From: Halomicroarcula saliterrae
Lineage (GTDB): Archaea; Halobacteriota; Halobacteria; Halobacteriales; Haloarculaceae
Direction of reading: 5' to 3'
Length of the DNA stretch: 64,000 nucleotides
NCBI RefSeq assembly: GCF_031624395.1
Contig: NZ_JAMQON010000001.1
Coordinates: 806,001 to 870,000, forward strand
Shown: positions 5,050 through 41,839 of the stretch, piece after piece
How positions within the stretch are numbered: the stretch's first letter is position 1
Layout of the letters: each line of letters starts with the position of its first letter
Made by a program: the position numbers and the translations under genes
The notes under the pieces: model-generated
The model's input: only the letters and a program-made list of their open reading frames with translations
Databases searched by the model: none
What the model was told of the DNA's origin: nothing

Positions 5050-5859
5050 TCAGTAGAGGTCGTCTATGTCCTCGGCCGACTCGGCGTGTTCCCGACTCGG
5101 GAACTCGCCTGACTCCACGGCCTCGACGTAGCCGTCGACGGCCGCCCGGATTTCCCCGCGGACGTCCCCGAACTGTTCGGCGAAGGGCGGCGACGATTCG
5201 GCCAGCCCGACCACGTCGGTAAAGACGAGTACCTGGCCGTCACAGTCGCCGCCGGCACCGATGCCGATGGTCGGGATGTCGAGCGCCTCGGTCACCTGCG
5301 CGGCCAGGTTCGCGGGGACGTGTTCGAGCACGAGCGCGAACGCGCCGGCGTCCTCGTGGGCCCGCGCGAGGTCGAGCAAGGCTTCGGCGTCCTCGCGGTC
5401 GGTCGCCTGTTGTGCGTAGCCGGTCTGGTTGACGCTCTGGGGCGTGAGCCCGAGGTGGGCCATCACGGGAATCCCGAGGTCGGCCAGCCGTTCGGTCAGG
5501 TCGACGGTGTGGGGTCCGGACTCCAGCTTGACGGCGTTGGCTCCCTCCTCTTTGAGCATCCGACCGCAGTTACGGACGCTCTCGGCCTCGTCGGCGCCGA
5601 CCGAGAGAAACGGCATGTCGGCGACGACGAGGGCGTCGTCGGTACCCCGAGCCACCGCGCCGACCCGGGCGGCCATCTCGTCGAGGGTCACGGGAAGCGT
5701 GTCATCGTGGCCCAGCACGGCGTTGCCCATGCTGTCACCGACGAGTACGACGTCCACCCCCGCCTGTTCGACGAGCGCCGCCGTCACCGCGTCGTAGGCC
5801 GTCAGCATCGTGATCTGTTCGTCACCTGCCATCGCCTGCAGGTCCCGGACGGTGGTCAT
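5050..5859 (-). CDS. panB: 3-methyl-2-oxobutanoate hydroxymethyltransferase
   Basis: The first enzyme of pantothenate synthesis: transfers a one-carbon unit from methylene-tetrahydrofolate to 2-oxoisovalerate, giving ketopantoate. It is 269 residues, the usual length. Family motifs are clear: LTAYDAVTAALVEQAGVDVVLVGDSMGNAVLG, ADMPFLSVG, AVKLESG, PVMAHLGLTPQS and PTIGIGAGGDCDGQVLVF. Metal ligands sit in the GDS and GAGGDCDGQ neighbourhoods. It is a single-gene unit; the next gene downstream on this strand lies beyond a non-coding gap. Confidence 0.93.
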   Translation of the reverse strand: MTTVRDLQAMAGDEQITMLTAYDAVTAALVEQAGVDVVLVGDSMGNAVLGHDDTLPVTLDEMAARVGAVARGTDDALVVADMPFLSVGADEAESVRNCGRMLKEEGANAVKLESGPHTVDLTERLADLGIPVMAHLGLTPQSVNQTGYAQQATDREDAEALLDLARAHEDAGAFALVLEHVPANLAAQVTEALDIPTIGIGAGGDCDGQVLVFTDVVGLAESSPPFAEQFGDVRGEIRAAVDGYVEAVESGEFPSREHAESAEDIDDLY

Positions 5860-9074: not shown

Positions 9075-10901
9075 TCAGTAGCTCCGCTCTTTGGGCTCGT
9101 AGGTCTCCTCTTCGCCTTCGAGGATGACCGGCTTGTAGTACAGCTCCGGCGTGCCGTCCGACCAGGCCAGCATCGTGTGTTTTATCCACTCGTCGTCTTT
9201 GCGCTCCTGGTGTTCCGCGCGCCAGTGGGCGCCCCGGAACTCCTCGCGGGCGAGCGCGCCGAGCGTGATGGCCTCGGCCACGTCCAGGATGTTCCGCGTC
9301 TCGATGGTGTGGATGAGGTCGGTGTTGTAGGTGCGCGACGGGTCGGCCACCGCCACGTTCTCGTACTCCTTGCGGGCCTCGCGGATGTCACGCAGCGCGT
9401 TCTTGACCGCCTCTTCCTCCCGGAAGACGTTGACGTTCTGGGTCATCGTCCGCTGGACGTCGGCGCGGACCTCCGCGTGGTTGATGCCGTCCTCTTCGAG
9501 CAGCGTTTCGATGCGCTCTCGCTCGTTCGAGACGGCGTTCTCGATGACGGCGGTCGGCTCGATAGCCGCCCCGTCGGCGACCACGTCCTCGCTCGAACTG
9601 TCGATAGCGCCGGGTTCGACCGGCGGTTCGACGGCGCCGTCCTCGCTCTTTGCCGAGGGACCGGTGCCGATTTCGGCGGTCTTCATCTCCTTGCCGGCGG
9701 CGTGGTAGCCCGCGCGAGCGCCGAAGACGAGCAGTTCGGGCAGCGCGTTCCCGCCCAGCCGGTTCGCGCCGTGGAGCGAGACACACGCCGTCTCGCCGGC
9801 GGCGTAGAGGCCGCTGATGCAGGTCTCGCCGTTCTCGTCGCACTCGACGCCGCCCATGGCGTAGTGCTGGCCGGGTTTGACCGGCATCGGCTCGTCGAGT
9901 CCGTCGACGCCCTCGAAGTCCTCCGCGAGGTGGAGGATGTTCTCCAGCCGGTCGAGGATGCGCTCCTCGCCCAGATGGCGCATGTCGAGGTCGACGTACT
10001 CGTCCTCGATACCGCGCCCCTCGTTGACCTCCGTCAGCTCGGCCCGGGAGACCACGTCACGGGAGGCGAGTTCGCCGGCGTTGTTGGCGTACCCGTGCTC
10101 GTACATGAACCGCTCCTCGTCGTCGTTGTAGAGGATGCCGCCCTCGCCGCGGACGCCCTCGGAGATGAGCACACCCGTCGACGGGAGCGTCGTCGGGTGG
10201 AACTGAATCATCTCCATGTCCTCCATGGGCGCGCCGGCGCGGTAGGCCATCGCACAGCCGTCGCCGGTGTTGGCGATGGCGTTCGTGGTGTGGTCGAAGG
10301 CCTGCCCCAGTCCGCCGGTCGCCAGGACGACGCCGTTGTTGGCCCGGAAGCCGTGAATCTCGCCGGACTTGATGTCGTAGGCGACACAGCCGTGACACTC
10401 CCGGTCCTCGGGGTCGTCGTGGTCGGTCACCGCGAGGTTGGTGACGTACCACTCGTCGTACACCTCGATGCCGCGCTTGACGGCCTGCTCGTACATCGTG
10501 TGCAGGAGATGGTGACCCGTCTCGGCGCCGGCGTAGGTGGTTCGCGGGAAGGACATCCCGCCGAAGGGGCGCTGGGAGACGCGGCCGTCCTCCTCGCGGG
10601 AGAACGGCAGCCCCCAGTGTTCGAGCTGGATGACTTCCTCGGGCGCCATCTGGGCGAAGGTGTCGACGGCCGGCGCGTCGGCCAGATAGTCCGACCCCTT
10701 CATCGTGTCGTAGGCGTGCAGGTCCCAGGAGTCGCCGTCCCGGAGGGCAGCGTTGATGCCGCCCTCTGCCGCGCCGGTGTGGCTCCGGACCGGATGGAGC
10801 TTGGTCACGAGGGCCACGTCGGCACCCTCCTCGTCCGCTGCGATAGCCGCTCGGAGGCCGGCGCCACCCGCACCGACCACGATAACGTCGTGTTCGTACA
10901 T
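9075..10901 (-). CDS. sdhA: Succinate dehydrogenase flavoprotein subunit
   Basis: The FAD-binding catalytic subunit of complex II (608 residues), oxidising succinate to fumarate. It shows the dinucleotide fold VVGAGGAGLRAAIAADEEG, the covalent-FAD region RSHTGAAEGGINAA (His 42), the substrate loop HPTTLPSTG, and GANRLGGNALPELLVFG near the FAD. An unusual inserted stretch rich in Ser, Asp and Glu lies around residues 405-440. Unlike the common sdhCDBA order, it is separated from sdhB by another gene and has its own AT-rich promoter region (GCTTAAG) upstream, so it is probably transcribed on its own. Confidence 0.93.
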   Translation of the reverse strand: MYEHDVIVVGAGGAGLRAAIAADEEGADVALVTKLHPVRSHTGAAEGGINAALRDGDSWDLHAYDTMKGSDYLADAPAVDTFAQMAPEEVIQLEHWGLPFSREEDGRVSQRPFGGMSFPRTTYAGAETGHHLLHTMYEQAVKRGIEVYDEWYVTNLAVTDHDDPEDRECHGCVAYDIKSGEIHGFRANNGVVLATGGLGQAFDHTTNAIANTGDGCAMAYRAGAPMEDMEMIQFHPTTLPSTGVLISEGVRGEGGILYNDDEERFMYEHGYANNAGELASRDVVSRAELTEVNEGRGIEDEYVDLDMRHLGEERILDRLENILHLAEDFEGVDGLDEPMPVKPGQHYAMGGVECDENGETCISGLYAAGETACVSLHGANRLGGNALPELLVFGARAGYHAAGKEMKTAEIGTGPSAKSEDGAVEPPVEPGAIDSSSEDVVADGAAIEPTAVIENAVSNERERIETLLEEDGINHAEVRADVQRTMTQNVNVFREEEAVKNALRDIREARKEYENVAVADPSRTYNTDLIHTIETRNILDVAEAITLGALAREEFRGAHWRAEHQERKDDEWIKHTMLAWSDGTPELYYKPVILEGEEETYEPKERSY

Positions 10902-20917: not shown

Positions 20918-20992
<75 letters not shown>

Positions 20993-21008
20993 TCCCAATT
21001 CTACCGCC

Positions 21009-21167
21009 GTCTTGCGTTTTTTGAGTCGTGAATAGAGCAATGATAGCCAATGTTTCAGGCCAAGTCAGAAATCAGGATTCAGTCATCCCGGCGCAGTCTT
21101 GCGATTAGCCGCTTTGTCCCACCTACTCGATTCAAAGGACTAGCCAAATACGTCCGAATCGCAAGAC
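21009..21167. repeat. Three GTCTTGCG motifs between tRNA-Glu and integrase
   Basis: The octamer GTCTTGCG occurs at 21009-21016 and 21096-21103 (plus strand) and as its complement at 21160-21167, the last 14 nt before the integrase ATG. The second and third copies extend to GTCTTGCGATT. Their position between attachment site and integrase fits integrase arm-binding sites or operators. The same octamer starts the four long repeats at 32.7-33.1 kb. Confidence 0.6.
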
Positions 21168-21180
21168 GGGGGCGAGTCTA

Positions 21181-22284
21181 ATGGACGAACTCGACGAGCT
21201 CCCCGTCGTAACCGACACGTCGGAAGAGTACCTCAACCAGCGACAATTACTCGACTACCGAGCCGAGCGTGAGGCGTGTCTCGAATGGCTCCTCACCTTC
21301 GGAAAGCGACCAGACGAGGCAGTTGGATACGCAGTGGGTACGGTGAAGCCAGGTGCGTATCGGATGGATCGATTCTATCGGTTCGTGTGGGACCAAGAGG
21401 GCGGGTACACGGTGAACGTCACGCACGATCACGCCGACGCGTGGATGAAGCATCTCGCACGCGGGGACACGGGCGCGACGAACAAGCGGAACTGCCAGAA
21501 AGCGGTCAAGCGACTGTTCAAATGGCGGCACCACGAGCACGGCCGCAGTGAATGGGATCCGGATATCACGTTCGCTGCTGATTCCAGTACGAACCCTCGG
21601 GACTTCCTCACCCGCGAGGAGCGATCTGCGGTGCGCGAGGCCGCGCTCGAATACGGCTCTGTCCCCAACTACAACAACCTCACACCGGCGGAGCGAGACA
21701 GGTGGAAGCAGTACCTTGCTCAGCGGTTCGAGAAACCGAAGTCGGAGATTTCCCCCTCTGATTGGGACCGCGCGAACGGGTGGAAGGTCCCATCGCTTGT
21801 CTGGTCGAGCCTCGATGCCGGGCTTCGACCGGTCGAGGTGGAACGATCGAAAGTCGGGTGGGTAGACACGGACAACGCGGTTCTCCGCATCCCGAAAGAG
21901 GAGAGCGCTAAAAACCGAGACGATTGGGTTGTCGGCCTCCAGTCCCGGACGGCGGAAGCACTCGACAACTGGCTCGCTGAGCGCGAAACGTACCCGGAGT
22001 ACGACGACACGGATTCGATCTGGCTGACCCGGAAATCGAATCCGTACACCACGAAGACACTCCGATACCTGCTGCATCAGCTCTGCGATATCGCTGACAT
22101 CGACACCACTCACCGGCAGATGAGTTGGTACACGATTCGTCACTCCGTCGGGACGTACATGACCCGCGAGGAAGATCTCGCAGCCACTCAGGCACAGCTC
22201 AGACACAAGAGCGCCGAAACGACAATGAAGTACGATCAAGTACCAGTAGAAGATCGTCAAGACGCGTTAGATCGAATGGGTTGA
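21181..22284 (+). CDS. Tyrosine recombinase / integrase
   Basis: A 367-residue XerC/D-like site-specific recombinase. An N-terminal SAM-like DNA-binding domain (about residues 20-115) precedes a catalytic domain with Arg in LDAGLRPVEVERSK, Lys in LTRKSNPYTT, Arg in SWYTIRHSVGTYMTREED, His in LRHKSAETTMKY and the nucleophile Tyr in that last segment. The His of the usual HxxR box is replaced by Tyr (YTIR), as seen in other haloarchaeal integrases. It sits just inside the tRNA-Glu border and so is the likely integrase of the island. Confidence 0.92.
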   Translation: MDELDELPVVTDTSEEYLNQRQLLDYRAEREACLEWLLTFGKRPDEAVGYAVGTVKPGAYRMDRFYRFVWDQEGGYTVNVTHDHADAWMKHLARGDTGATNKRNCQKAVKRLFKWRHHEHGRSEWDPDITFAADSSTNPRDFLTREERSAVREAALEYGSVPNYNNLTPAERDRWKQYLAQRFEKPKSEISPSDWDRANGWKVPSLVWSSLDAGLRPVEVERSKVGWVDTDNAVLRIPKEESAKNRDDWVVGLQSRTAEALDNWLAERETYPEYDDTDSIWLTRKSNPYTTKTLRYLLHQLCDIADIDTTHRQMSWYTIRHSVGTYMTREEDLAATQAQLRHKSAETTMKYDQVPVEDRQDALDRMG

Positions 22285-22343: not shown

Positions 22344-23462
22344 TCAGAGGATGTCCGCTGCTGACCGCTGGAGCTCTTTAGTTGGATGGACGTATCGAGA
22401 TGCTGAGGACGTACTGTTTTGCCGTAATACTTCCGCGACGATGTCGAGGTCCGTTTTCTCTTCATACGTGTAAGTGCCAAGGGAGTGCCTGAATGAGTAC
22501 CAGCAGAGCTTTCGACCTTGGTGGTTGATTCCGGCTTCCTCGATGAGATTATCGAGGAGATAGTTGAGTGTGTTTGATTTGTATGGGTTACCCTTCCTTG
22601 TGAGCCACATGTGACCGGTATCGTCGTAGTTACTGCTATTGCTCCGTTGCTCAAGCCACGAATCCAGGGCTTGGGCGGCCTGATCCGAAAGATACTGTGT
22701 CCACTCTGTATCGTTTTTGACAGCGTGCTCTGCAGGAATGATAATCTTCTTTCCATCTGCATCGTACCAGTCGACTTTCATCCTATTGATGAGCGCTGGC
22801 CGCCATGCTGCAGACCTTTCAGTTGCGATGAGCGATGGGTATTTCCAATTTTTGTTGACCTTATCCCAATCCGCCGGTTTGACTTCGCTCTTTGGTTTAC
22901 CGATTACCTGAGCGAGATGCCTTCGCCAGCGATCACGCTCATCGGGAGTGAGGTTATTATACATTGGGATCGACTTGTAGGTCAGTGACGTATCCCAAAG
23001 CAACTTGACTTCGGCTTTGGTGAACGGGTCTGCCGCGTTCTTTGCCGGCTCATCGTTGAAAGTAATATCCGGCTCCCAATCAGATCCATTGAATCGGAAC
23101 CAATTGACCAGTGCGTTCGAGATTTTTCGTTTGCTTCCCTCGGCGTATCGATCGCCATCGCGGCGTCGGAACTCGTCGGTGGCAAGGGCTTCGATTACTT
23201 CGTCCGCTTGTTCCGGCGAGATCTCTGTAGAAATCCTGTCGTTTCTCCAGACCCATTCAATAGCTTGCAGTACTCGTGAGACTCGTGTCCCGATTGACTG
23301 TTCAGAGTACCCGATTTCTTTTCGCGGATTCTTCCCTTCTGATTTGAGATACCGCCTGAAATCTTCGAGTGTCGATTCGAAGATGACCTCTTGCCGCTCG
23401 TTTAATTGCGGGAACGACTCCTCTGAGTCATCTGCGGAATAGCTACTCATAGTCGCCACCAT
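22344..23462 (-). CDS. Second tyrosine recombinase, paralog of the neighbouring integrase
   Basis: A 372-residue protein convergent with the first integrase and clearly related to it: both share YNNLTPxERDRW, AQ...KPKSE and LTRKxNPY segments in the same order. Catalytic Arg residues are kept (AWRPALI and YSFRHSLGTY) and the nucleophile Tyr is present (SASRYVHP), but the His of LRHKS is Gln here (LRQNS). It may be a weaker or differently regulated recombinase. MVATMSS or MSSYS (12 nt later) may be the start. Regulatory or invertase roles are possible. Confidence 0.85.
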   Translation of the reverse strand: MVATMSSYSADDSEESFPQLNERQEVIFESTLEDFRRYLKSEGKNPRKEIGYSEQSIGTRVSRVLQAIEWVWRNDRISTEISPEQADEVIEALATDEFRRRDGDRYAEGSKRKISNALVNWFRFNGSDWEPDITFNDEPAKNAADPFTKAEVKLLWDTSLTYKSIPMYNNLTPDERDRWRRHLAQVIGKPKSEVKPADWDKVNKNWKYPSLIATERSAAWRPALINRMKVDWYDADGKKIIIPAEHAVKNDTEWTQYLSDQAAQALDSWLEQRSNSSNYDDTGHMWLTRKGNPYKSNTLNYLLDNLIEEAGINHQGRKLCWYSFRHSLGTYTYEEKTDLDIVAEVLRQNSTSSASRYVHPTKELQRSAADIL

Positions 23463-28083: not shown

Positions 28084-29430
28084 TTACAACGATACGTCTT
28101 CTTCTATCGTCTCCGCATAGAGCCGGTCAATTGTCGAGTACAGGTCGGGATTTCCAATCGCCCCTTGCGTGATTGCCCGGGCTAGCGCAGCGATGTACGC
28201 GTCGAAGAAACTCTCGTGTGCGTCGATCTCGATGGGGTATTCGCCGCGTAACACGTTCGATTTGTTCCCTGTAATAGAGTAGTTCGTGTCAGCGATCGCT
28301 GGCCGGATTTCAGCTGCTGCATCGGAGAACCGGGTCGCAAACCCATTATAGAACGTGTCGTGGCCAGACGGGGCGTTACGCAGCGTCACAATAAGCGTGT
28401 TATCACGGACTGCCTCGTCTCGGTTCTGGCCTAATCGGTGGACGAACCCGACTCGCGCGTTCGGTTTCGCCGTTTCTGATACCTGGCGTTGCTCGTCGAG
28501 TTTCGTCCACCACTCTTTCGGGAATGACCACGACCAGTCGGATTTCCCTTGCCGGAACGTCCATTGCCGCTGCTCGTCACCTATCGGGAGCGATACAGCA
28601 GCGTACTCAGAAGGTATCTCGGCATCTTCAACAAGCGTCGCATCGTCGAGTGCCTGCGCTAACCGCGTCCCCCACGACGATTCGAACGACGCCCACTCCT
28701 CATCGAACGCGTCCTCCAACTCCGTGATCACATCGTAGTTCTCAATGAACAGTTCCACCATCTCCTGTTGATTCTCCTCGTATTCAGTCATCGTCAACTC
28801 ACTCCGAATCGTGTCAATGAACTCTTTCAACTGCGCCGTCGTCCGCGCCGGGTACTCATCGTAACTCTCCATCAGGAACGACTGCATCTCACCCACCAAC
28901 CATTCCCACGATAAGTGTACGAACTCGTCCGCTTCTGGCGACGACGCATCCTCCGGTGCTAAAAATACGTAATTATGCCCATCACGCGGCACGTCATCTT
29001 TCTCCACCCCAATGCCGTCGAACGATTCAATGTCCACGTAGCGTGGTGTCTGGTCCATTCCCTCTGAAGCATGCACTTTCAATTCGAAGCACAAAAACCA
29101 CTCCTCAGGTACCCACACCAACAGATCCGGCCGTCCTTGCTCAGTCACGACTTCCTGCGCAATATGGATCTCCTCAATCTCAAACCGAGAAAACGCGAAC
29201 TCTAATTCAGACCGGTCAGCTAACGCGGTTAAGACGTGCTCAAGCAGCGCGTGATTCAACCCGTGAGCCTCCTCAGGCGAGAGAAAATGCACGAGGAACT
29301 GCTGCCAATCCCGTTCCTGCCCACCCCGGCCAAGCACCTGCAACGCAGTCGGCGGCGGCTCCGACGCATCCGGCAACGCAGCGATCCGTTGCCGTAATTC
29401 CGCTACCTGACTCGTAATCCTCTTGGCCAT
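28084..29430 (-). CDS. PD-(D/E)XK nuclease-superfamily protein
   Basis: A 448-residue protein. After a helical N-terminus it has a nuclease core with the motif VTEQGRPDLLVWV...WFLCFELKVHASEG (Asp about residue 101, Glu-x-Lys about 114-116), the PD-(D/E)XK signature, followed by DQTPRYVDI. The C-terminal half (about 250-430) is a separate alpha/beta domain with aromatic-rich strands (WTFRQGKSDWSWSFPKEWW). Similar stand-alone nucleases are found in defence islands. No methylase accompanies it, so the target discrimination is unclear. Confidence 0.75.
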   Translation of the reverse strand: MAKRITSQVAELRQRIAALPDASEPPPTALQVLGRGGQERDWQQFLVHFLSPEEAHGLNHALLEHVLTALADRSELEFAFSRFEIEEIHIAQEVVTEQGRPDLLVWVPEEWFLCFELKVHASEGMDQTPRYVDIESFDGIGVEKDDVPRDGHNYVFLAPEDASSPEADEFVHLSWEWLVGEMQSFLMESYDEYPARTTAQLKEFIDTIRSELTMTEYEENQQEMVELFIENYDVITELEDAFDEEWASFESSWGTRLAQALDDATLVEDAEIPSEYAAVSLPIGDEQRQWTFRQGKSDWSWSFPKEWWTKLDEQRQVSETAKPNARVGFVHRLGQNRDEAVRDNTLIVTLRNAPSGHDTFYNGFATRFSDAAAEIRPAIADTNYSITGNKSNVLRGEYPIEIDAHESFFDAYIAALARAITQGAIGNPDLYSTIDRLYAETIEEDVSL

Positions 29431-32325: not shown

Positions 32326-32671
32326 CTATCCTCGCCTTCACGCTTCAATTTCTAACCATATTACGTCTAAGAATTCTGTGAATTTCGGTGAGGTAGCTCA
32401 TATCTTCCCTCTTTATAATAGCTGAATTGAGGGCACTTATATTGAAATGCTATCGATGAGAATTAATTATTTTTATTTTCTATCATCCAGTATTTTCTGT
32501 TTACGTTTGGCGAGAATACGATTGGGTAAGTGGAGCAGACAGGCAAATAGAGATTGGTATGTCAAGATATTGATTATGAATTAATGGGGCTGAATGTAGA
32601 CCGATTCATGAGCTATCCCCCGATATGAAATACAAATTATGTAAAATTGTGGGCATGGGTGAACGCGATAC

Positions 32672-33131
32672 TATGGACAAACTGTGCCTATTTTCATTGT
32701 ACGGTGCTGTCTTGCGGTTATGGACAGATTGTGGCCTAATTTCTATTGGACTCTATCCTGCTGTTGTCCGATCATTATGGACATTTTGTGAGTGATTTGC
32801 ATTACTAGCCATCTCCAGCAAATAGATAAGATTCTAACATCTAGGAATGACCGTTAATAACTCAGACTGAGATCTCTCAATGTCAATAATAATACTATAT
32901 CTCATGTCTTGCGGTTATGGACAGATTGTGCCCTAATTTACATTGGTCCAAACCCACTCGTTGTCTTGCGGTTATGAACAAATCGTGCCTAGAGTCAATG
33001 TATTATTAACACCGTCTGAAATCACCATCGAACTGGTCGAGGGTCCCTCCACTGAATTTTTGGAGAAATCCCGCCAATTCACCCCTTTGCCGTCTTGCGG
33101 TTATGGACAGACCGTGCCCTGATTTACATTG
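32672..33131 (+). repeat. Family of about 40-nt direct repeats beginning GTCTTGCGGTTATG
   Basis: Four good copies start at 32709, 32906, 32963 and 33092 with the common core GTCTTGCGGTTATGGACAGA, then TTGTGCCCTAATTTACATTG. Two partial copies lie at 32672 (TATGGACAAACTGTGCC) and 32774 (ATTATGGACATTTTGTG). All face the same way. The spacing is irregular (about 57 to 197 nt) and the stretches between are not spacer-like, so it is not a CRISPR array. Similar shortened copies flank the integrase at 21.1 kb. Confidence 0.8.
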
Positions 33132-33237
33132 ATATTATGGCTGTATGACGGGGTGTGTCTCAAGACACTGGTTTTGCTTGCAGCTTTAGAGCGCTTCAGA
33201 AACTGCAAAGTTATATCTAAGAGCGTCGATTGGGGTC

Positions 33238-33284
33238 TAGACCAGTTCTATACCCCCCGAAATTTTCCGAAGGGGGTTGGTCTA
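33238..33284. other. Strong inverted repeat / hairpin
   Basis: A 7-bp outer stem (TAGACCA/TGGTCTA) and a 6-bp inner stem (ACCCCC/GGGGGT) enclose CGAAATTTTCCGA, with a 7-nt bulge on one side. The G-run preceded by CGAA recalls the G-strings of haloarchaeal origin-recognition boxes, but no full box is present. It may be an RNA structure or an origin element. Confidence 0.45.
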
Positions 33285-34057
33285 ATAGATGGCTGAGGAG
33301 GATTTACCTCCCGTGGCATTGGAATCTCAGTTGCCGGATGGGTTACCACTTTCAAGCGCCATGTGGTTAGGCTGGTGTCTGCTTGTATCAGTTTGGTAAG
33401 GGACAGTGCTCACTAGGCACACTGTGGATGCCCGGTACGGTTCTATACATGAGTGGCGGTGAGGCGACAGGAGCTATCGTGGTGGTGTGCCAGTTACTTC
33501 GAAACGAAGGTATTGGTGAGCATTGAGAGTGACTGCTTTTTCTATCAGAATAGTGGTACGAATATGTGTGTGTGTCAGGATTCAACAAGCAGCAAAACAA
33601 TGTGTGGACAAAGACGTCACACTTTCTGCTTGATCGATGCTGCTGGCGCAGGTTTCCTCGAAGACTAGGATTCGATCAACCCTACATGGTATCCCGAGCC
33701 ACAGCCAACTCTAAAGAGACAGGTCGAGGAGAGACTTTGCTTTGCGTCGGCGAGTAGCATCTTGGTGAGGCGGTGTTGCCCTCACTATTTTCGAGGCCCT
33801 GAGCGATCTCCGGGCGCGACTCATTGGTCAACTTGGACATCTCGACATCCCGGTGGTTCTGATACCACCTGTACGCACCACTGACGCTCTCAGTACTGCA
33901 ACCGAGTACTACGAGTATCACGCTATTCAAAACCATCCTGTCTGAGCACGGTTCGCCACAGGGCAGTAGGAAGAATTAAATCGCCTCGCTGAATATGTGT
34001 ATATGAGCAGGTGGCGCACGGATCAATGATCCCTCCTTGAGGGTACTGAGTTCCGTG

Positions 34058-34074
34058 AGGCTACCTGGTAGCCT
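34058..34074. terminator. Short perfect hairpin downstream of the DUF3800 gene
   Basis: AGGCTACC-T-GGTAGCCT forms a near-perfect palindrome 23 nt beyond the stop of the DUF3800 gene, and CCCTCCTTGAGGG just beyond forms another small stem. It is placed where the minus-strand transcript would end. Terminator function is inferred from position only. Confidence 0.3.
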
Positions 34075-34096
34075 TTCCGAGAGCATAATTCTGGAG

Positions 34097-34810
34097 TTAC
34101 TTCTTTGCGAACCGAAGCGGATGCAGCGTTTCGACGGCCGTTTCACAGTCTCCTTTCCGCTGATGCCGAGCCCAACTGTATGCCGCTACATCAGCAACCT
34201 GTAGCCCTGGCGCGTCCTTACTATCACGACTGTCAAATTCAATCGGCGGAATCTCATCCGCAGTACGATCTAACACAGTCGCTACCTTCTCCGCAGGGTT
34301 TTGCCACACCTCAGAATCCAGAACGACGCACATCGAATCAATCGTACTCAGAGCTACGTGCGTCGTCTGAAATACCGGGTTTAGCACGCTGCATAACGCC
34401 AGTGTCTTCAATTCTTGAACAGATTCATCGAAGTTCCCAATCACGTCTGTCAACACGTCATTGCCGATATCCGGGTTCACCGCATGCACTGACAATCGGA
34501 TCGGGTGCGTAATCTCCCACGGCAACCGGGTTTGCTCAATTGTCGGGTCATCATACTCGACTTGATTCAAACACCCAACAGTCGTATTAACAACCGCAAC
34601 CGGTAATGCAGATCCCTTCAGCTCAGACAACGTTCGAGACCCATGCAACGCACTCTCAGCAATCGTTTTCAATTCATCAGCCGTATGCCGTAACACCTCA
34701 TTCGCCCGGCCCCGCTCAGAAAGACACCACGGAGCAGCTACTACATAGTATGACCCGTTTGATGGGTTCCCACTCTCATCAACGTGTACGAACAACGTCC
34801 GAGCCATCAA
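34097..34810 (-). CDS. DUF3800-domain protein
   Basis: A 237-residue protein with RNase H-like fold signature: FVHVDESGNPSNGSYYVVAA at the N-terminus (Asp and Glu of the active site) and DAPGLQVADVAAYSWARH near the end (Asp of the LQxADxxA motif). The DUF3800 family is widespread in phage-defence islands and mobile elements; its biochemical role is not settled but acidic residues point to a metal-dependent nuclease. MMARTL or the next Met may be the start. A single gene next to HNH genes. Confidence 0.82.
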   Translation of the reverse strand: MMARTLFVHVDESGNPSNGSYYVVAAPWCLSERGRANEVLRHTADELKTIAESALHGSRTLSELKGSALPVAVVNTTVGCLNQVEYDDPTIEQTRLPWEITHPIRLSVHAVNPDIGNDVLTDVIGNFDESVQELKTLALCSVLNPVFQTTHVALSTIDSMCVVLDSEVWQNPAEKVATVLDRTADEIPPIEFDSRDSKDAPGLQVADVAAYSWARHQRKGDCETAVETLHPLRFAKK

Positions 34811-34909
34811 ATCAACAGGATACTATCACGCAAACGCTCACGCGATATATTTCATTCCATCACTACCAAGCCGCCCCTGTCACATAACTACGTGGTTAAT
34901 CATAGTCCG

Positions 34910-35134
34910 TGGAACTGTGAATGCGAAGGTTGCGGTGAGCCAGCACACCAGTGAACCAAGGCAACCGTATCTCCACGCCCACCATATTAACGAACTGAGT
35001 GACGGCGGGTCAGACACACGGCAACCGTCGTGGCTCTCTGCCCGAACTGCCACTACACAACCCACCACGGCGTCGATGGTGACGAGTTCAACGACCACTT
35101 ACGCACGAAGATATCGCAACTGGACGACGCGTAA
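34910..35134 (+). pseudogene. Decayed HNH endonuclease fragment
   Basis: Three consecutive frames together spell the end of an HNH nuclease: NCECEGCGEPA (zinc Cys pair), then after a frame change LHAHHINELSDGG (the HH of HNH), then after another LCPNCHYTTHHGVDGDEF...ISQLDDA and a stop. Two frameshifts and an internal TGA mean it cannot be translated intact. The missing N-terminal part would lie upstream but is not recognisable. It faces the intact HNH gene of the RAMP operon. Confidence 0.7.
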
Positions 35135-35151
35135 CCTGACCGCGTGAGAGT

Positions 35152-36117
35152 CTACAGCGCCTTTTCGAGTTCTTCTAACGCCTCGATCGTCTGCTGTAAC
35201 TGCGTTTTCGCATCCGACCACGAGATGTCTTCACCGTCTTCCTCGGTCGGTTCCTGATCGGCCTTGCCGCCATCGCTCAGCACCCCTGCTTCACCGTCAG
35301 CGCCGTCTTCCACTGCGTCGAGTCGCTGCTGCGTCTCGGCACCGTCGTCCCCCTCAGCAGGTGGCATCTCTGTTAGTGAGTCACCATCTTCGACATTGGC
35401 CGACGGTCGCCCGCCTCTGTCATCCAACGCGTTTAGAGGGAATGCGTACGCTCTCGCGCGTTTTTCCTTGTGCCACGTTGTCCGCCCCACCACACCGATC
35501 ACATCAGCGACCTCGTCACGGCTACACCCGCGGTCAAGGGCTTGCCGGACACGTTCGTCCTCAGCACGCTGTAACAGGGTTTGCGGGTCATCAGGAATGC
35601 GGCCGCGAGCAGAGTTCGATATCTGCTCAGTGAGGCCCCACTCACCCGTGTCTGCGTCCTGATCGATGATTTGCCGGTCGCGTCCTTCGACCTTATTGTC
35701 GAGGCCCATCAACACCCACAAGCGCTCCCGGACTGCTGTCACGGAGAGATCCGGCGTGAGTTCGTCCACGATGTCACCTGTTCGGATCGGGCCGTGCTCT
35801 GCTAACACTTGGATGATCTCAGCGTCCTGCGGCAGTAATACCGTCGAGTCCGCTTCAGTAAGCTCGACCGGGACTTCGTCGCCCGATGGCTGGTTATGCA
35901 GCCAGTTATGACAGCGCCGGCATACTGCAGTCAGGTTCCTTAAGTCGTGCTCGTCCATCTCGTCGACATCACGCGTCGCGTGATGGATTTGCAGCGCCGC
36001 CACGCCGCCAGCACCCGGACCGTCCCGGCCACACCACTTGCAGCGATGCCCCGCAGCCGCTAACACGTCCTTCCTCGTCTCCGGATCCACCGTCTCGTTC
36101 GACACATCCTCGGTCAT
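35152..36117 (-). CDS. HNH endonuclease, last gene of the RAMP operon
   Basis: A 321-residue protein. An N-terminal HNH nuclease (RCKWCGRDG, LQIHHATRDVDEMDEHDLRNL, CRRCHNWLH: Cys 26/29, His 45-46, Cys 66/69, His 74) is followed by a winged-helix region (about 95-150, IIQVLAEHGPIRTGDIVDEL), an HTH-like segment (CSRDEVADVIGVVGRTTWHKEKRAR) and a coiled-coil acidic tail ending LQQTIEALEELEKAL. It ends the minus-strand operon with the Cas5- and Cas7-like proteins and is a candidate target-cleaving nuclease of that system. Confidence 0.85.
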   Translation of the reverse strand: MTEDVSNETVDPETRKDVLAAAGHRCKWCGRDGPGAGGVAALQIHHATRDVDEMDEHDLRNLTAVCRRCHNWLHNQPSGDEVPVELTEADSTVLLPQDAEIIQVLAEHGPIRTGDIVDELTPDLSVTAVRERLWVLMGLDNKVEGRDRQIIDQDADTGEWGLTEQISNSARGRIPDDPQTLLQRAEDERVRQALDRGCSRDEVADVIGVVGRTTWHKEKRARAYAFPLNALDDRGGRPSANVEDGDSLTEMPPAEGDDGAETQQRLDAVEDGADGEAGVLSDGGKADQEPTEEDGEDISWSDAKTQLQQTIEALEELEKAL

Positions 36118-36121
36118 GCTC

Positions 36122-36298
36122 TCACCTCTCCGTCGATACTGCGTTCTTGATCTGTCGCCGATACGTCACCGTGATCGAACCGCGTTTGTCGTTGCATTTT
36201 GCGTTCATCAGCCGCTTGTTGGCCCCGCGTCGATACCTGGCGTCTACCTGGTGTATCGCTTCAATACCGCCTGTCCTCGCCACACTACTCGCCGTCAA
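36122..36298 (-). CDS. Possible small basic protein in the RAMP operon
   Basis: A 58-codon frame between the exonuclease and HNH genes, with TTG start at 36298 or GTG at 36283. It is basic and ordered-looking (IEAIHQVDARYRRGANKRL, GSITVTYRRQIKNAV) in contrast to most neighbours. Its stop is 4 nt before the HNH ATG. No family recognised. The region could also be a plain spacer, but this frame has good composition and operon-like spacing. Confidence 0.4.
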   Translation of the reverse strand: MTASSVARTGGIEAIHQVDARYRRGANKRLMNAKCNDKRGSITVTYRRQIKNAVSTER

Positions 36299-36308
36299 CT
36301 CGGCCGCG

Positions 36309-36977
36309 TCACCCGTGACTCGTCGGGGTTAACGATTTCACTTGGAAATCCGATTTACTGCAGTACCGTTCCGCGACGCTGCCAAGTGCTGCCGTTCGAA
36401 GCACGTCCGAGACGTTATGCTGAATCACGTCCACGAACCGTCCTTCATTGAACGCGACCACCGCCTCCTTACTGTCATCGAACGGATCGATCTCTCCGAA
36501 CTCGTCACCGCACAGCACGTCGTATGCTGCCGTGAGACTCGACTGTGACTCCCCATCCACGGTCGTGTTGAACAGTTTCCTAATCACCGGGAAGAGGTCC
36601 GCGTACGGCACGTCGAGGAACGGCCAGTCAAGGCCGTTCGCCGCAAATCGGGTTCGAAGGAACGGTACATCGAAGCCACCATTCCACGTTTCACCATTGT
36701 ACGCGACGAGGAGCACGTTATCATCGTAGAGGCGCATCTGCACGAACTCCGCCACCGCCTCTAACAAGGGGGCTTCCGAGTCGTGGACCGACACAATCAC
36801 GTGTTCCTCAACGCGGTCCTGCACGTCCTCTTCGAGCCCGTCACGGGTTCGCTCGGCCGTCTGGCAGAACACACGCACCCCTAATGGGAGACTGAATCCG
36901 ACCACGGTCACGACATCGTCGACGTCAAACCCGGTCGTCTCGATATCGAATGCGACCTGCTCTAACGCGTCGCTCAC
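36309..36977 (-). CDS. DnaQ/DEDD-type 3'-5' exonuclease
   Basis: A 222-residue RNase H-like nuclease. Exo I is VAFDIETTGFD (Asp 11, Glu 13), Exo II is VAYNGETWNGGFDVPFL, and Exo III is HNVSDVLRTAALG with the Asp after a His. This is the DEDD family, which degrades DNA or RNA from 3' ends. It overlaps the Cas5-like gene by 4 nt (ATGA), so it is part of the RAMP operon and a candidate effector or guide-processing nuclease. Confidence 0.85.
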   Translation of the reverse strand: MSDALEQVAFDIETTGFDVDDVVTVVGFSLPLGVRVFCQTAERTRDGLEEDVQDRVEEHVIVSVHDSEAPLLEAVAEFVQMRLYDDNVLLVAYNGETWNGGFDVPFLRTRFAANGLDWPFLDVPYADLFPVIRKLFNTTVDGESQSSLTAAYDVLCGDEFGEIDPFDDSKEAVVAFNEGRFVDVIQHNVSDVLRTAALGSVAERYCSKSDFQVKSLTPTSHG

Positions 36978-37900
36978 GAGGTTGCACCCCCGACACCGAC
37001 GGCGCGTTCCGGCACGCGATCCCGCTTAGCTGGTCGAAGGCGGAACTCACCGAACCCGTACTTCGCATGCGTCCCCACGCGAAGCACGCCATTCTTGGCC
37101 GTTCGAACCGCGTCGGTCCCCGCGAAATCCACCACTTGCCCGTGATCCACCGTCTCAAGTACGTGCACTTCTTCACCGTTCACGAGCCGGGTTTCCCGGC
37201 GACGCAACTCACCGTCAACACCCCACCACCACGGGACGTCCTGCCCGTCAGCCCCCGGGTACTCACTCTCCAGAACGAATGGCGACACGAGCTCTAAGTT
37301 GAGCGCCGTGTCCTCAACGCGGGAGTAGTCTAATTCATCCAATTCAACGAGCTGCGTGTCTTTCAGGGACAGCTCGCCAAGCCCGTAATTCCTGGCTGCC
37401 CCGACACGCAACCCGTCCAGCACATCATCGTCGAGCGGGAGGACATCGTCGTCGTGCCCGCCGTGTACGTAGCACTGCACGAACCACTGGACTGATCGCT
37501 TCGAATTCCGGACGTTCTCGGGCCGCCCAAACCAGCACCGTGGCGCGAACGCGAGTCGCCCACCATGACTCTGGATATCCGGCACGTTATGCGCGTCCCG
37601 AGGCCGGGAATCCAGCAACCATCGTTGTGCGGCGTCTCTGTACAGGAACAAGTCCGCGTAGTTTTCGACCGCCGGAAGCGACTTCCCAAGCACCCCGGCG
37701 TACCCAACTTCGGAATGCGCAGACGGGTACTCCCCGTACTCGCTCGGGACGAACACTCCGTGACTCACCTGTAACTGCTTGCGAGCCCGGGCGTCGACAC
37801 GACGGGCGAGCGCATTGAACAACGCGTTCCCCGTCACGTGATACGCGTGCCCTTGATAGTCCGACTCCAACTCGAACAGTACCTGCTGTACCTGTGTCAT
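36974..37900 (-). CDS. Cas5-like RAMP protein (HRAMP system)
   Basis: A 308-residue protein. The Met at 37900 (MTQVQQVLFELESDYQGHAYHV) is the start, not the longer frame. Two ferredoxin-like folds are suggested by two glycine-rich loops typical of RAMP proteins: GAARNYGLGELSL (about 167-179) and GTHAKYGFGEFRL near residue 280. RAMP proteins bind guide RNA in class 1 CRISPR effectors. The neighbours (Cas7-like, nucleases, no array) fit the derived haloarchaeal RAMP (HRAMP) system, where the second RAMP is Cas5-like. Confidence 0.75.
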   Translation of the reverse strand: MTQVQQVLFELESDYQGHAYHVTGNALFNALARRVDARARKQLQVSHGVFVPSEYGEYPSAHSEVGYAGVLGKSLPAVENYADLFLYRDAAQRWLLDSRPRDAHNVPDIQSHGGRLAFAPRCWFGRPENVRNSKRSVQWFVQCYVHGGHDDDVLPLDDDVLDGLRVGAARNYGLGELSLKDTQLVELDELDYSRVEDTALNLELVSPFVLESEYPGADGQDVPWWWGVDGELRRRETRLVNGEEVHVLETVDHGQVVDFAGTDAVRTAKNGVLRVGTHAKYGFGEFRLRPAKRDRVPERAVGVGGATS

Positions 37901-37940
37901 GCCTTCACACCCCCTGCGCTTCCAGTGGAGAATATCGGGT

Positions 37941-38780
37941 TCACCGTGCATCACCGTCCCCGTACACTGCGACGTAATCCTCGATGTACGCGAGCGCCGT
38001 CGACCACGACCGGACCCGCCGCAACTGCGCATCCAACCGCCGCCACCGCCGGCAACTCTGATCGAACGGATGCGCCGACAACCTGGACCACGTATCCGCA
38101 AACGACCGTGCCGGACACGACCCCAACGGAGCCGACGGCCGGTCCCCCGGCTCGCCCGTTACGTGCAGCGACATGACCGGCGACCACAGGACAGTTCGAA
38201 ACGGCTCAACTGCGTCGGACCCCCGGGCCGCTGCAGCAGTCCTACCTTCGTCCGGCAGCGGGCCTGACGGCGTCGCCACGAGGTGGAGGTCTGCGAACTC
38301 ATGCCCGGCCCGGTAATTATCCAGCAACGCCGCTACGAGCAGCACGTGGAACCTGAGCGAGGTGTACGGGTAATACACCGACTCATTGTACGCTGCCGCG
38401 GCCTCGCTCGTCAACCACCGCGAATGCAGCACTTCGGGATCCGTCGACAACACCAACCAATCCAGCGGCGCATCGTCCGACGCTCGAATCCGATCAGACG
38501 CTACGGCCGTCCCGCCCGTCACGAGCGACAACCGGCGCGGCGACTGGTGATTCGCCACCGTCTCATCAGGCGCGCCTTTCGGCCGCGACAATCGAGCCGC
38601 ATCCCCATCAGCACCCAACGGCACCGACTCGTTCACCCTGGCGTCGCGGAACACCTCTTGAGCCGCATCATGCGACCGGCCCCGCAACTTATGCACATCA
38701 TGGCGAAACGCCGCGACCATTGGATCCACATCTGACTCAGGCCCCTCGTGCGGCGACTCGAACGGCACGTCCGACGTCAC
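37941..38780 (-). CDS. Conserved unknown protein of the HRAMP operon
   Basis: A 279-residue protein lying between the two RAMP genes, sharing 4 nt with the Cas7-like gene. The N-terminal part is polar. The middle has LDWLVLSTDPEVLHSRWL and hydrophobic YNESVYYPYTSLRFHVLLVAALLDNY, and the C-terminus is Arg-rich and helical (RRWRRLDAQLRRVRSW). No known domain is recognised. The HRAMP description includes one uncharacterised conserved protein with Cas5 and Cas7 homologs, and this is the candidate. It might replace the large or small subunit of class 1 complexes. Confidence 0.7.
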   Translation of the reverse strand: MTSDVPFESPHEGPESDVDPMVAAFRHDVHKLRGRSHDAAQEVFRDARVNESVPLGADGDAARLSRPKGAPDETVANHQSPRRLSLVTGGTAVASDRIRASDDAPLDWLVLSTDPEVLHSRWLTSEAAAAYNESVYYPYTSLRFHVLLVAALLDNYRAGHEFADLHLVATPSGPLPDEGRTAAAARGSDAVEPFRTVLWSPVMSLHVTGEPGDRPSAPLGSCPARSFADTWSRLSAHPFDQSCRRWRRLDAQLRRVRSWSTALAYIEDYVAVYGDGDAR

Positions 38781-39721
38781 GCCGCATCACCACCCGGCAC
38801 CGGCAGGTCACCATCACGACGCGCTGTGCGGGCCTGGAGCGCCTCCACGAACTTGTCCCGACACCGCGTCTGCCACAGCTCATCCTTCCGCTCCATCTCG
38901 TTGGTGGGCGACTTCCGCCGATCATACATATTCGACACCTCATCCTCAGAGTACAGCGGGTTCAGGACCTGTGCGTCGACCATGCCCGCGCCGAAATTCC
39001 TCGCGCCCCCAAGTTGGAAGGCATACTCGTCACTATGCGCATCCAGGAACGCGACAGCTTCCAGCAAGAGCCCGACGAACTCAGGCTTCGTCTCCCGCAA
39101 CGTGAGTTTCCACGTCCCCACGAGATTCCCGACCACGTCCCGCGTCGAGTGCCGCAGCGGCTGCCCACCATCCTCCTCGTTCCTGGATCTGACTTGTGTG
39201 TGCAGCTGGCGATAGTGCGCCTCGGCTTCACCCCTCGTGACATCTACTTGGCTACGGACCGGCGAGAACGACACTGGACGACGAATCAACTTCCCCGGTG
39301 ATCCGCCAAACCCACCGAACAGATCGTACACCACACAGCCAGCATCCACATCGTCCTGGCACGACCCTTTCTCATGATACCCGGATTCCAAATCCCGGTC
39401 GTATACGTCCTCAAGTCTAAAGTTCGCATTCGACTCGCCGGGATGGCACGCAGACGCACCTGCCGCCTGCAAAACCGCCTCGCAGCCATGACGCAGCCAT
39501 CCCGACAGCGCGAACGGGGAAATCTGGCCCGCAATCTGGTTCTGTGGGTCGTCAGCTTCGTAGCGATCCGACGACGCATGATGCCGATCGGTTACAATCC
39601 CATCACCCGGAGCCAGCAGCCCGGCATCGAGGCCAACGTACAGATCAGGGAGCATCAGAGCCTCCTCGACAGGTAGCTCGAACTCAATTGGGAGATCAGA
39701 CGTGTCAAAATCGACCATCAC
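38777..39721 (-). CDS. Cas7-like RAMP protein (HRAMP system)
   Basis: A 314-residue protein. Typical Cas7/Csm3-like features are ISPFALSGWLRHGCEAVLQAAG (about 68-89, the helix after the first strand), a central VYDLFGGFGGSPGKL (about 131-145) that looks like the GDLFGG loop of Csm3/Cmr4, and a C-terminal glycine loop LGGARNFGAGMVDA (about 237-250). Multiple copies would coat a guide RNA. It is 4-nt coupled on both sides within the RAMP operon. Confidence 0.8.
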   Translation of the reverse strand: MMVDFDTSDLPIEFELPVEEALMLPDLYVGLDAGLLAPGDGIVTDRHHASSDRYEADDPQNQIAGQISPFALSGWLRHGCEAVLQAAGASACHPGESNANFRLEDVYDRDLESGYHEKGSCQDDVDAGCVVYDLFGGFGGSPGKLIRRPVSFSPVRSQVDVTRGEAEAHYRQLHTQVRSRNEEDGGQPLRHSTRDVVGNLVGTWKLTLRETKPEFVGLLLEAVAFLDAHSDEYAFQLGGARNFGAGMVDAQVLNPLYSEDEVSNMYDRRKSPTNEMERKDELWQTRCRDKFVEALQARTARRDGDLPVPGGDAA

Positions 39722-39921
39722 GCCTCACCACCCTCAGCCGCAACCAACTCACACGCCGCACACCCTGGTGACGACCACTCACCCGAATCAACACGCAACG
39801 ATTCGCGCGTATGGGCCGGCGACCACGCCACAACCTCAGGGTCAACCACCGTCACCCAATCACGCTGCAAACCCTGGTCAACCACGCGACCAACCCGGCC
39901 CTCAACCACCACTTCACACAC
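39718..39921 (-). CDS. Small protein at the head of the HRAMP operon
   Basis: About 67 residues with a GTG start at 39921, ending PGCAACELVAAEGGEA and sharing ATGA with the Cas7-like gene. It carries one CxxC pair (CAAC) and a RVDSGEW segment. Translational coupling argues that it is real. The frame stays open upstream into sequence that belongs to the opposite helicase, so the exact start is unclear. It may be the fourth component of the RAMP system. Confidence 0.45.
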   Translation of the reverse strand: MCEVVVEGRVGRVVDQGLQRDWVTVVDPEVVAWSPAHTRESLRVDSGEWSSPGCAACELVAAEGGEA

Positions 39922-39976
39922 GCCAAGCGTCGACAAAGAAGAAAGCGACGGTGGATGCCGCGGACACCGCACCTGA

Positions 39977-41839
39977 CGAACGTTCGAACTGTACGAGTGG
40001 CAAAAAGAAGCCGCGACGCAATGGTTCACTGGTGAGAAGACGGATACGGAGCGGGGTATCGCACAGGTAGTGACTGGTGCGGGGAAGACAGTGATGGCGC
40101 TGGAAGTTTTGCGTCAGTGGCTCGCAGATCACCCGGACGGCGTAGCTACAGTTGTCGTTCCGACGAAAGTACTCATGCACCAGTGGCTGGAGGAACTCGT
40201 CGAGACACTCGGTGTCCCGTCCGACGACATCGGATGGCTAGGTGACGGGCACAAGGACGGGTTCGAAGGTGGGTGTCGAGTCCTTGTCTCGATTGTCAAT
40301 TCCGCAGTTAAAGACGACGCACTCTCAGAGACGTTGCAAGCCGCAGGTGTCAGTGAGCATCTCCTCATCGCCGACGAATGTCATCGCTACACTGGCGATA
40401 CGTTCTCGAACGTGTTCGACTGTGACAGGACAGCCAGCTTAGGCCTGTCTGCGACCCCGCTATCCGATCCGACCGCTGACGAGCGCTGTCCGGAAGACGA
40501 GATGCTGGTCGCTAATCTCGGCGAGATCTATTACGAACTGTCGTACGACGAGGGACAACGCCGTGACCTGATACCTGACTTCCGGATTAATTACATCGGG
40601 TTTGACCTCACCGACGCCGAACAGATGGCGTATCAGCGGCTGACCGATGCAGTAGTCGACGCGGTAACGGACATCGAGCGGCAATACCAGAACCGCCTGT
40701 ACGAACTCAGTGGGAGCTTCTCACGGAAACTGCAAGTCATCCGGAACAACGCTGACAGGGCGACGCCGGCGATCTCGGACTACTTCAAATACACGCAGGA
40801 GCGACGGGAACTGGTAGCTGACGCCGTTGCTCGGCAAGCCGTAACGCTGGAACTGCTCTCAGAAAGTGTGGACAACGACCAGAAAGCGATTGTTTTCCAA
40901 GAACGAATCGAGCAGTTAGAGCGGATGGTCGCTCCGAGTGAAACACGGGGCCGTGACGTTCGAACAGGCGAACTCACGGATACGGATGTCGACCGCGCAC
41001 AACTCTACGAGCGATACCCGGCGCTGAAACGAATCGATAAGAAGCTGGAAGAGCTGTTTTTCACTGCGAGTTATCGCCCCGTTATGTACCATTCGGGGCA
41101 TAGGAACAAGGCCTGGAACGATTTCGCTATCGAATGGTTCGGCGACGACGGGTTTGCAAACGTAATGCTGAGCGTCAAGGCGCTAATCGAAGGCGTTGAC
41201 GTCCCATCTGCTGACGTGGGTATCGTACGTGTATCTTCAGGGAGTATCAGACAGCGTATCCAGACGCTCGGCCGTATCCTTCGGACGGGCGAAGACCCGG
41301 ATAAGCAAGCAGAGTTGTTCGTTCTCTATGCGCGAGACACCGTCGATGCGAACATTTTCGAGCGATACGACTGGCGGGAGGAGCTCTCACAGGCAGAGGT
41401 CCGACATCTAACGTGGGAAACTGAAGAAGACGCGATTACCGGGCATCTCAGGCAAGCGACTGACAGCGAAATTCCCGATCCCCCGGCGAGTCAAACGATT
41501 CCAGATCCCGAGGAACTAGCCCAAGGCGACCCGTATCCAGGACCAAGCGACGGGTTCGAATTCAGTGTCGATGCCGAAGGTCGACCGTTCACCAGGAGTC
41601 GAGATGGGCGGAAATTTATCGAATCAGAAAGCTATCGGGACGTCGCCTCGTTCATCCATGCTGAGAAGGGAGGCGGGAGTGTAATCGTTAACAAAGCCAA
41701 TCACGCAGTGACCTTCCTCGGTGAGTCGCTTGTCTTTGTCGGCGTAGTCGAAGACCCAACAGATATCGAATATCAACAGAGCTCTGGTGGTAGCTTGACC
41801 GATGAATCGGATTTCTCCCTTGATGAGATGGGCGGATAG
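39977..41839 (+). pseudogene. SF2 helicase with missing or frameshifted N-terminus
   Basis: The frame from 39977 encodes about 620 residues of a superfamily 2 helicase: LYEWQKEAATQWFTG (Q-like motif), Walker A VVTGAGKTV, DECH box LIADECHRYTGDTF, SATPLSDP, then helicase C motifs (IVFQERIEQLE, IEGVDVPSADVGIVRVSSGS, QRIQTLGRILRTG). There is no start codon between the in-frame TGA at 39974 and the Walker A GTG at 40070, so the 5' end is truncated or frameshifted. The gene abuts the divergent HRAMP operon, and the joint lies near 39.92-39.97 kb. Confidence 0.65.

Follow-up and report, generated by a model that had tools for sequence, protein, structure and literature searches.

A gene-free stretch (32326-34096) of the window, that is, of the whole 64,000-nucleotide stretch analysed (contig positions 806001-870000 of the 4.2-Mb genome of Halomicroarcula saliterrae), was found to harbor an array of six directly repeated bipartite sites, comprising four full and two degenerate copies (32662-33132), and, directly 3' of it, a structured element (~33178-33380) with helix covariation. 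It is about an even proposition that the repeats act as the ordered control region upstream of a structured RNA that haloarchaeal integrative elements carry. Comparison among genomes shows that direct bipartite sites precede the element at conserved spacings in several lineages, that the covarying element, in which a pseudoknot is likely, follows ~113 nt after the last B-box, and that the A-box is also conserved between the tRNA and the genes of related integrases. The original prediction, which had described the repeats, overlooked their ATTTACATTG half and the structured element directly downstream.

Organization and specificity of the repeat array

The four full direct copies are 44 nt long and start at 32705, 32902, 32959 and 33088, and the two degenerate copies have a TATGGACA core at 32671 and 32775. 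Six repeat matches were reached in 0 of 100 shuffles, confirming the four direct and two partial copies that had been predicted for the gene-free stretch. Each copy consists of an A-box, GTCTTGCGRTT, followed 27-28 nt on by a TATA-like B-box, ATTTACATTG, and the octamer GTCTTGCG starts at 32709, 32906, 32963 and 33092 within the full copies. All sites lie on the forward strand, including S1 (degenerate, 32662-32700, with a B-box-like core at 32688-32700 and a spacing to S2 that is kept in other loci), S2 (full, 32709-32749, with the A-box GTCTTGCGGTT at 32709-32719 and the B-box core at 32737-32749), S3 (degenerate, 32766-32805, core at 32793-32805), S4 (full, 32906-32946, A-box at 32906-32916 and core at 32934-32946), S5 (32963-33003, with a full A-box at 32963-32973 and a diverged B-box) and S6 (full, 33092-33132, A-box at 33092-33102 and core at 33120-33132), the site nearest to the RNA and its predicted promoter. 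The spacing of both partial copies is found again in other genomes, which makes them look like genuine positions of the array. The surroundings of the array are AT-rich. An imperfect dyad, TATGGACAnnnTGTGCCTA, occupies the middle of the repeat (32671-32690 and the other copies), a layout that would suit a dimeric DNA-binding protein.

A genome-wide scan had been proposed as the way to tell these repeats from a motif that is common everywhere. The 11-mer GTCTTGCGRTT is rare, with 11 copies in the whole 4.2-Mb genome, of which four belong to the array, two to the tRNA-integrase gap and five to other places, and exact matches to GTCTTGCGGTTATG are confined to the array. The octamer alone is unremarkable: it occurs 7 times in the window against 3.6 expected, a count reached in 8 of 100 shuffles, and is therefore weak evidence by itself. 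Among 146 genomes of the family, a 22-mer search allowing up to 3 mismatches matched the own genome and a single CDS start in G102. Exact repeat patterns gave one match each in 43 GTDB-contig and 19 IMG/VR stretches, which were treated as chance; none of the 43 is titled haloarchaeal.

Conservation of the array geometry

At unrelated loci, repeats precede the element at near-equal offsets, with gaps of ~47, 57, 140, 56 and 116-129 nt, while their sequence is in good part different. Such conservation of geometry while much of the sequence changes points to an ordered protein-DNA complex. De novo search found upstream repeats with matching gaps in the window (47, 57, 140 and 186), L199 (48 and 56), L200 (48 and 55), L201 (47 and 194), L202, L207 (58, 195 and 127) and L245 (104, 140, 55 and 116), and motif search resolved six sites in L245 with gaps of 47, 57, 140, 55 and 116. 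The distance from the last site to the element model ranges from 112 to 114 nt, being 113 nt in the window, L199, L200 and L202 and 112 nt in L245; the weakly scored last site of L208 also falls at 112-114 nt. With a profile made from the window only, seven other loci jointly fit the window template better than random templates (0 of 2000), the fit of any single locus being weak (fractions of 0.016 to 0.29 of random templates) and L180 and L208 misfitting. Moreover, ATTTACATTG, searched with at most one mismatch on the forward strand upstream of the element, was found 8 times in 11 other array-type loci against ~0.7 expected from Markov shuffles, and the B-box takes the form TTTATAACG in the relatives. 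Several of the statistical tests in this study were picked after the data had been seen, and L204.708 was omitted from the neighbour-gene survey, the ATTTACATTG count and the de novo repeat search.

At 21 of the 32 loci, a divergently oriented gene starts ~250 nt upstream of the element, and this gene and other repeats replace the array; L248, L249, L250 and L254, for example, carry three repeats with 32-34-nt spacing before the element. By eye, the divergent gene product is resolvase-like, with a C-terminal helix-turn-helix, and lacks the catalytic beginning that is typical of serine recombinases. Pfam Resolvase matched 1 of 3 members only (E = 0.065), and a profile of the resolvase-like protein matched the canonical serine resolvase of the island (68903-69577, E = 6.1e-41), which supports the kinship of these proteins. 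Tyrosine integrases of clusters 1 and 9, recognized by similarity to the window integrase or by eye, are present in the flanks of at least 14 of the 32 loci. No protein cluster was found next to the element in every array-type locus.

The structured element and its covariation

The region 33243-33373 matches genome G123 with 80% identity (E = 4.9e-25) and G229 weakly, and covariance model R1 was made from these three copies. Searched against 391 genomes of the class, R1 gave 14 genomes at E 1, from which nine places were retained by inspection, and model R2, built from 12 copies, gave 37 places in 28 of the 391 haloarchaeal genomes at E 0.05, of which two are false, as may be some others among the lowest-scoring ones. 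In a sample of the phylum, R3 matched 13 of 374 genomes. Its matches outside the class were dropped, that in G559 lying in a coding sequence and those in G566 and G638 being coding-like by eye. The matches in G409 and G264 were left aside and that in G040 was rejected by eye; the coding-like L258 and L261 were kept in alignment A5 and left out of A6, the neighbour survey and the X-segment test, and A6 also omits L259 and L262, which nearly duplicate L264. Six IMG/VR contigs that were candidates by the loop motif gave no model match.

The element core defined by R2 and R3 (33233-33380, forward strand) contains helices P2 (33248-33254/33282-33288), P3 (33297-33311, with an AUUUA loop) and P4 (33345-33349/33363-33367), all of which carry compensatory changes in alignments A4 and A6. 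In an alignment fitted to the model, covariation reached 0.303 against 0.133 (sd 0.013) in shuffled alignments (0 of 500), with a maximum of 0.100 when slid, and an independent MAFFT alignment gave 0.308 against 0.141, and at most 0.102 when slid. The pairs of P4 vary freely (C-G, U-A, A-U and G-C) around a conserved loop, UUCAAGCGCC, and the loop of P3 is of the AUUYA type in most copies. The GCC of the P4 loop (33358-33360) is able to pair with a downstream GGC (33370-33372); since this pairing hardly varies, a pseudoknot is suggested rather than shown.

The window stretch has no counterpart in Rfam 15, where its best hit is U4atac at E 2.1, far below the cut-off, and 12 other members of the element gave no match at E 0.5. 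The window element does not fold at a lower energy than shuffles do (z = -0.24 and 0.14), so that the case for the element rests on comparison. A literature search, one poor in subscription papers, returned no description of it. Taken together, the element is most likely a previously unrecognised structured RNA of haloarchaeal mobile elements, for which transcription is inferred, and the covarying strand could instead be single-stranded DNA.

Several loci carry the element in unusual settings. L204 has two copies ~120 nt apart. L207 has two copies 4.1 kb apart (5708-5853 and 9845-9991), both with similar neighbour genes (PAS-domain/kinase-like by eye), as if the whole unit had been duplicated. 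The G123 copy lies in ~4 kb without a convincing gene (L178, 12358-16295).

Segments able to form alternative helices

Upstream of P2, many copies contain a segment X, then its complement and then a second copy, X', with examples in G317 (GCGCGGGTTCTA, AGAACCCGCGC and GGCGCGGGTCTA). These segments, which lie at 33178-33188, 33198-33208 and 33240-33250 of the window (forward strand), are able to form mutually exclusive helices, and the match in the window is moderate, with scores of 5 direct and 7 complementary. The X segments differ among loci and agree inside a locus, with own means of 6.70 versus 5.22 for direct and 6.39 versus 5.11 for complementary matches. Permutation of 33 copies never reached the own means (0 of 5000 for direct and for complementary), in a test made less independent by the close relatives among these copies and with many single copies lacking a clear match. 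This arrangement suggests a two-state RNA switch.

The A-box at the integrase border

The island has two convergent tyrosine integrase genes, at 21181-22284 (forward strand; Pfam PF00589, E = 3.3e-15) and 22344-23462 (reverse strand), and the same pair is present in G115 (L202). The 188-bp gap between tRNA-Glu and the first integrase holds an inverted pair of A-boxes ~60 bp apart, with GTCTTGCGATT at 21096-21106 on the forward and 21157-21167 on the reverse strand, both found by exact genome scan. An octamer copy at 21009-21016 (forward strand) continues GTTTTTT, a variant also seen in L289 (GTCTTGCTTTTTT). With five background copies per 4.2 Mb, two copies in 188 bp are unexpected, and judged from these counts it is not by chance that the integrase border has the A-box in common with the array.

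Related integrases of other genomes are 39-62% identical, and between the tRNA and the integrase start codon YTCTTGCGATTC was found twice in L284 and a single time in both L286 and L287; L289 has a variant of it, and the integrase border of L285 lacks it. A border A-box profile was made from five sites at the integrase borders of other genomes, with zero window sequence. Over 31 array sites of seven other loci, this profile matched best exactly 27 nt before the B-box cores, where the mean score was -0.47; the mean for all 61 offsets was -9.01 (sd 2.57). The core positions came partly from motif search and de novo repeats, with a few set by eye. Judged by its best match per upstream region, the profile is clear only for the window (2 of 100 shuffles), L178 (0 of 100) and L208 (0 of 100), followed by L245 (6 of 100) and the remaining eight regions (at least 10 of 100). 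When the own border was compared with the own array at nine loci, an exact string was common to both in the window only, so sharing outside the window emerges only with the profile, and L178 and L199 lack an A-box at their own integrase borders. The prediction that the integrase border and the array hold members of one repeat family is thus supported by the recurrent YTCTTGCGATTC and the profile peak at -27, and extends beyond the genome of the window.

The attachment site attL, at the 3' end of tRNA-Glu (20974-20993, forward strand), has an exact duplicate, attR, beyond the window at 82684-82703, as part of a longer near-identical duplication, which gives an integrative element of ~61.7 kb; inside the window, no tRNA copy of at least 14 nt was found. 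The array lies 12 kb inside the left end of this element, and the idea that the repeats mark an old element end, which had also been considered, finds no support, since the ends are tRNA-Glu duplications. Two further features of the island are a PD-(D/E)XK nuclease (28084-29430, reverse strand) resembling the candidate defence family PDC-S26 and, unusually for an integrative element, a cluster of 21 tRNA genes inside its right end, just before attR (L274 12422-18000, equivalent to ~76.4-82.0 kb in window coordinates, beyond the window).

Possible function and alternative explanations

The B-box ATTTACATTG resembles the haloarchaeal TATA box. S6 may therefore be the promoter of the RNA, with its B-box in the TATA-like role, which would place the RNA start near 33150, just before X. 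A single DNA-binding protein may read the A-boxes at both the array and the border and thereby couple the RNA to expression of the integrase or to excision. Segments X and X' and the complement between them would allow two exclusive folds, acting as a switch for maintenance or immunity of the integrative element. As a more ambitious and tentative proposal, which is doubtful as a whole, the element would represent a new archaeal RNA-switch class, in which a protein bound to the six sites and to the border A-box, encoded by the integrative element and possibly the integrase itself, ties integration or excision to an RNA flipping between folds, the fold state deciding whether the integrative element is silent, replicates or excludes related elements.

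A serious rival, though a rather unlikely one, is that the region is the replication origin of the excised element, where an initiator would use the six sites as iterons and the structured element would be the origin itself, a primer RNA or a single-stranded DNA hairpin origin; the same standing of serious rival applies to single-stranded DNA as the folded strand. The direct repeats have the fixed geometry expected of iterons and lie in AT-rich surroundings, L201 has a ParA upstream (by eye), and primase- or helicase-like genes are present downstream in L250, L256, L259, L262 and L264, the primase-like protein matching PHROG primases. A hairpin origin is also known for haloarchaeal SNJ2, according to the available text (PMC13107129). 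However, a replication gene is not consistently adjacent, so the array lacks the neighbouring initiator gene that iterons should have, and the SNJ2 origin as described there is a short hairpin after the rep gene (PMC13107129). Three DNA queries found no match among PLSDB plasmids, and of eight regions around plasmid homologues of the resolvase-like protein, the RNA model fits one, which lies beside an integrase.

It is unlikely that the A-boxes are the integrase's own sites, with the array serving as a remote part of the recombination or excision machinery or the integrase acting there as a regulator. In four border regions from other genomes, conservation of the A-box goes together with that of the integrase family, and the A-box recurs in arrays, but 12 kb separate the array from attL and 49 kb from attR, and L207 has an array without a cluster 1, 3 or 9 integrase in its flanks. 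The border copies of the A-box adjoin the att core, and the array does not. The predicted arm sites thus retain the motif common to the integrase border and lose the proximity to the ends, and the array is unlikely to consist of arm sites in the strict sense; one protein, with the integrase as a candidate, is possibly common to the array and the border.

It is extremely improbable, and largely refuted, that the array supplies the guides which the neighbouring CRISPR-derived HRAMP-like operon is missing. In favour of this reading, HRAMP is described as array-less in the available texts (PMC8730458, PMC12669027) and the operon is close (34097-39721, reverse strand), but 0 of 40 loci with its Cas7-like gene carry the repeat or the element, and the gaps of the array (47, 57, 140, 57 and 129) are too irregular for the repeat-spacer spacing of a CRISPR array. 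The operon encodes Cas7-like, Cmr3-like/RAMP, HNH, RNase-H-like and DUF3800 proteins, with a weak Cmr3 match, and relatives of its Cas7-like protein (38777-39721) occur in 35 of the 146 family genomes. We take the operon to be HRAMP-like from its gene content and from general descriptions of HRAMP. The best score of the repeat profile at the 40 loci was an unconvincing 20.7 (L045), against at least 31.7 for the window copies and at most 13.9 for reversed sequence. The closest relative, G015, whose Cas7-like protein is 93% identical, shares only 33941-39981, at 86% identity. With no repeat at the Cas7-like loci and conservation in G015 starting at 33941, the array is not part of the operon.

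Comparison with known systems

If the reading as an ordered control region for a structured RNA is true, the element represents an undescribed structured-RNA family in archaeal mobile elements and offers a testable handle on maintenance control in haloarchaeal integrative elements, a poorly known matter. With the origin of the SNJ2 pleolipovirus, as presented in the available description (PMC13107129), it shares a conserved hairpin, a variable upstream binding site and an occurrence in haloarchaeal mobile elements, whereas that origin is a short hairpin downstream of the rep gene, and the description mentions no six-site array. STAXI, a pseudoknot-containing motif that comes in two or three repeats and lies close to genes for integrases and other DNA-handling functions, was found in a survey of bacteria, archaea and metagenomes, according to the text available (PMC2864571). 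The element resembles STAXI in its proximity to integrase genes and in its suggested pseudoknot, and differs from the two or three repeats of STAXI in having several helices and no Rfam match. As for HRAMP, the island also holds an HRAMP-like operon, but the array and the element are absent at other HRAMP-like loci. In the immunity (CI) RNA of phage P4, which integrates, and in RNA II of ColE1, a segment with two alternative partners controls a mobile element. Unlike these RNAs, the element described here is archaeal, has a six-site array upstream and shows no sequence or Rfam link to them, and by analogy it would have in common with them a segment with two alternative partners within a structured RNA.
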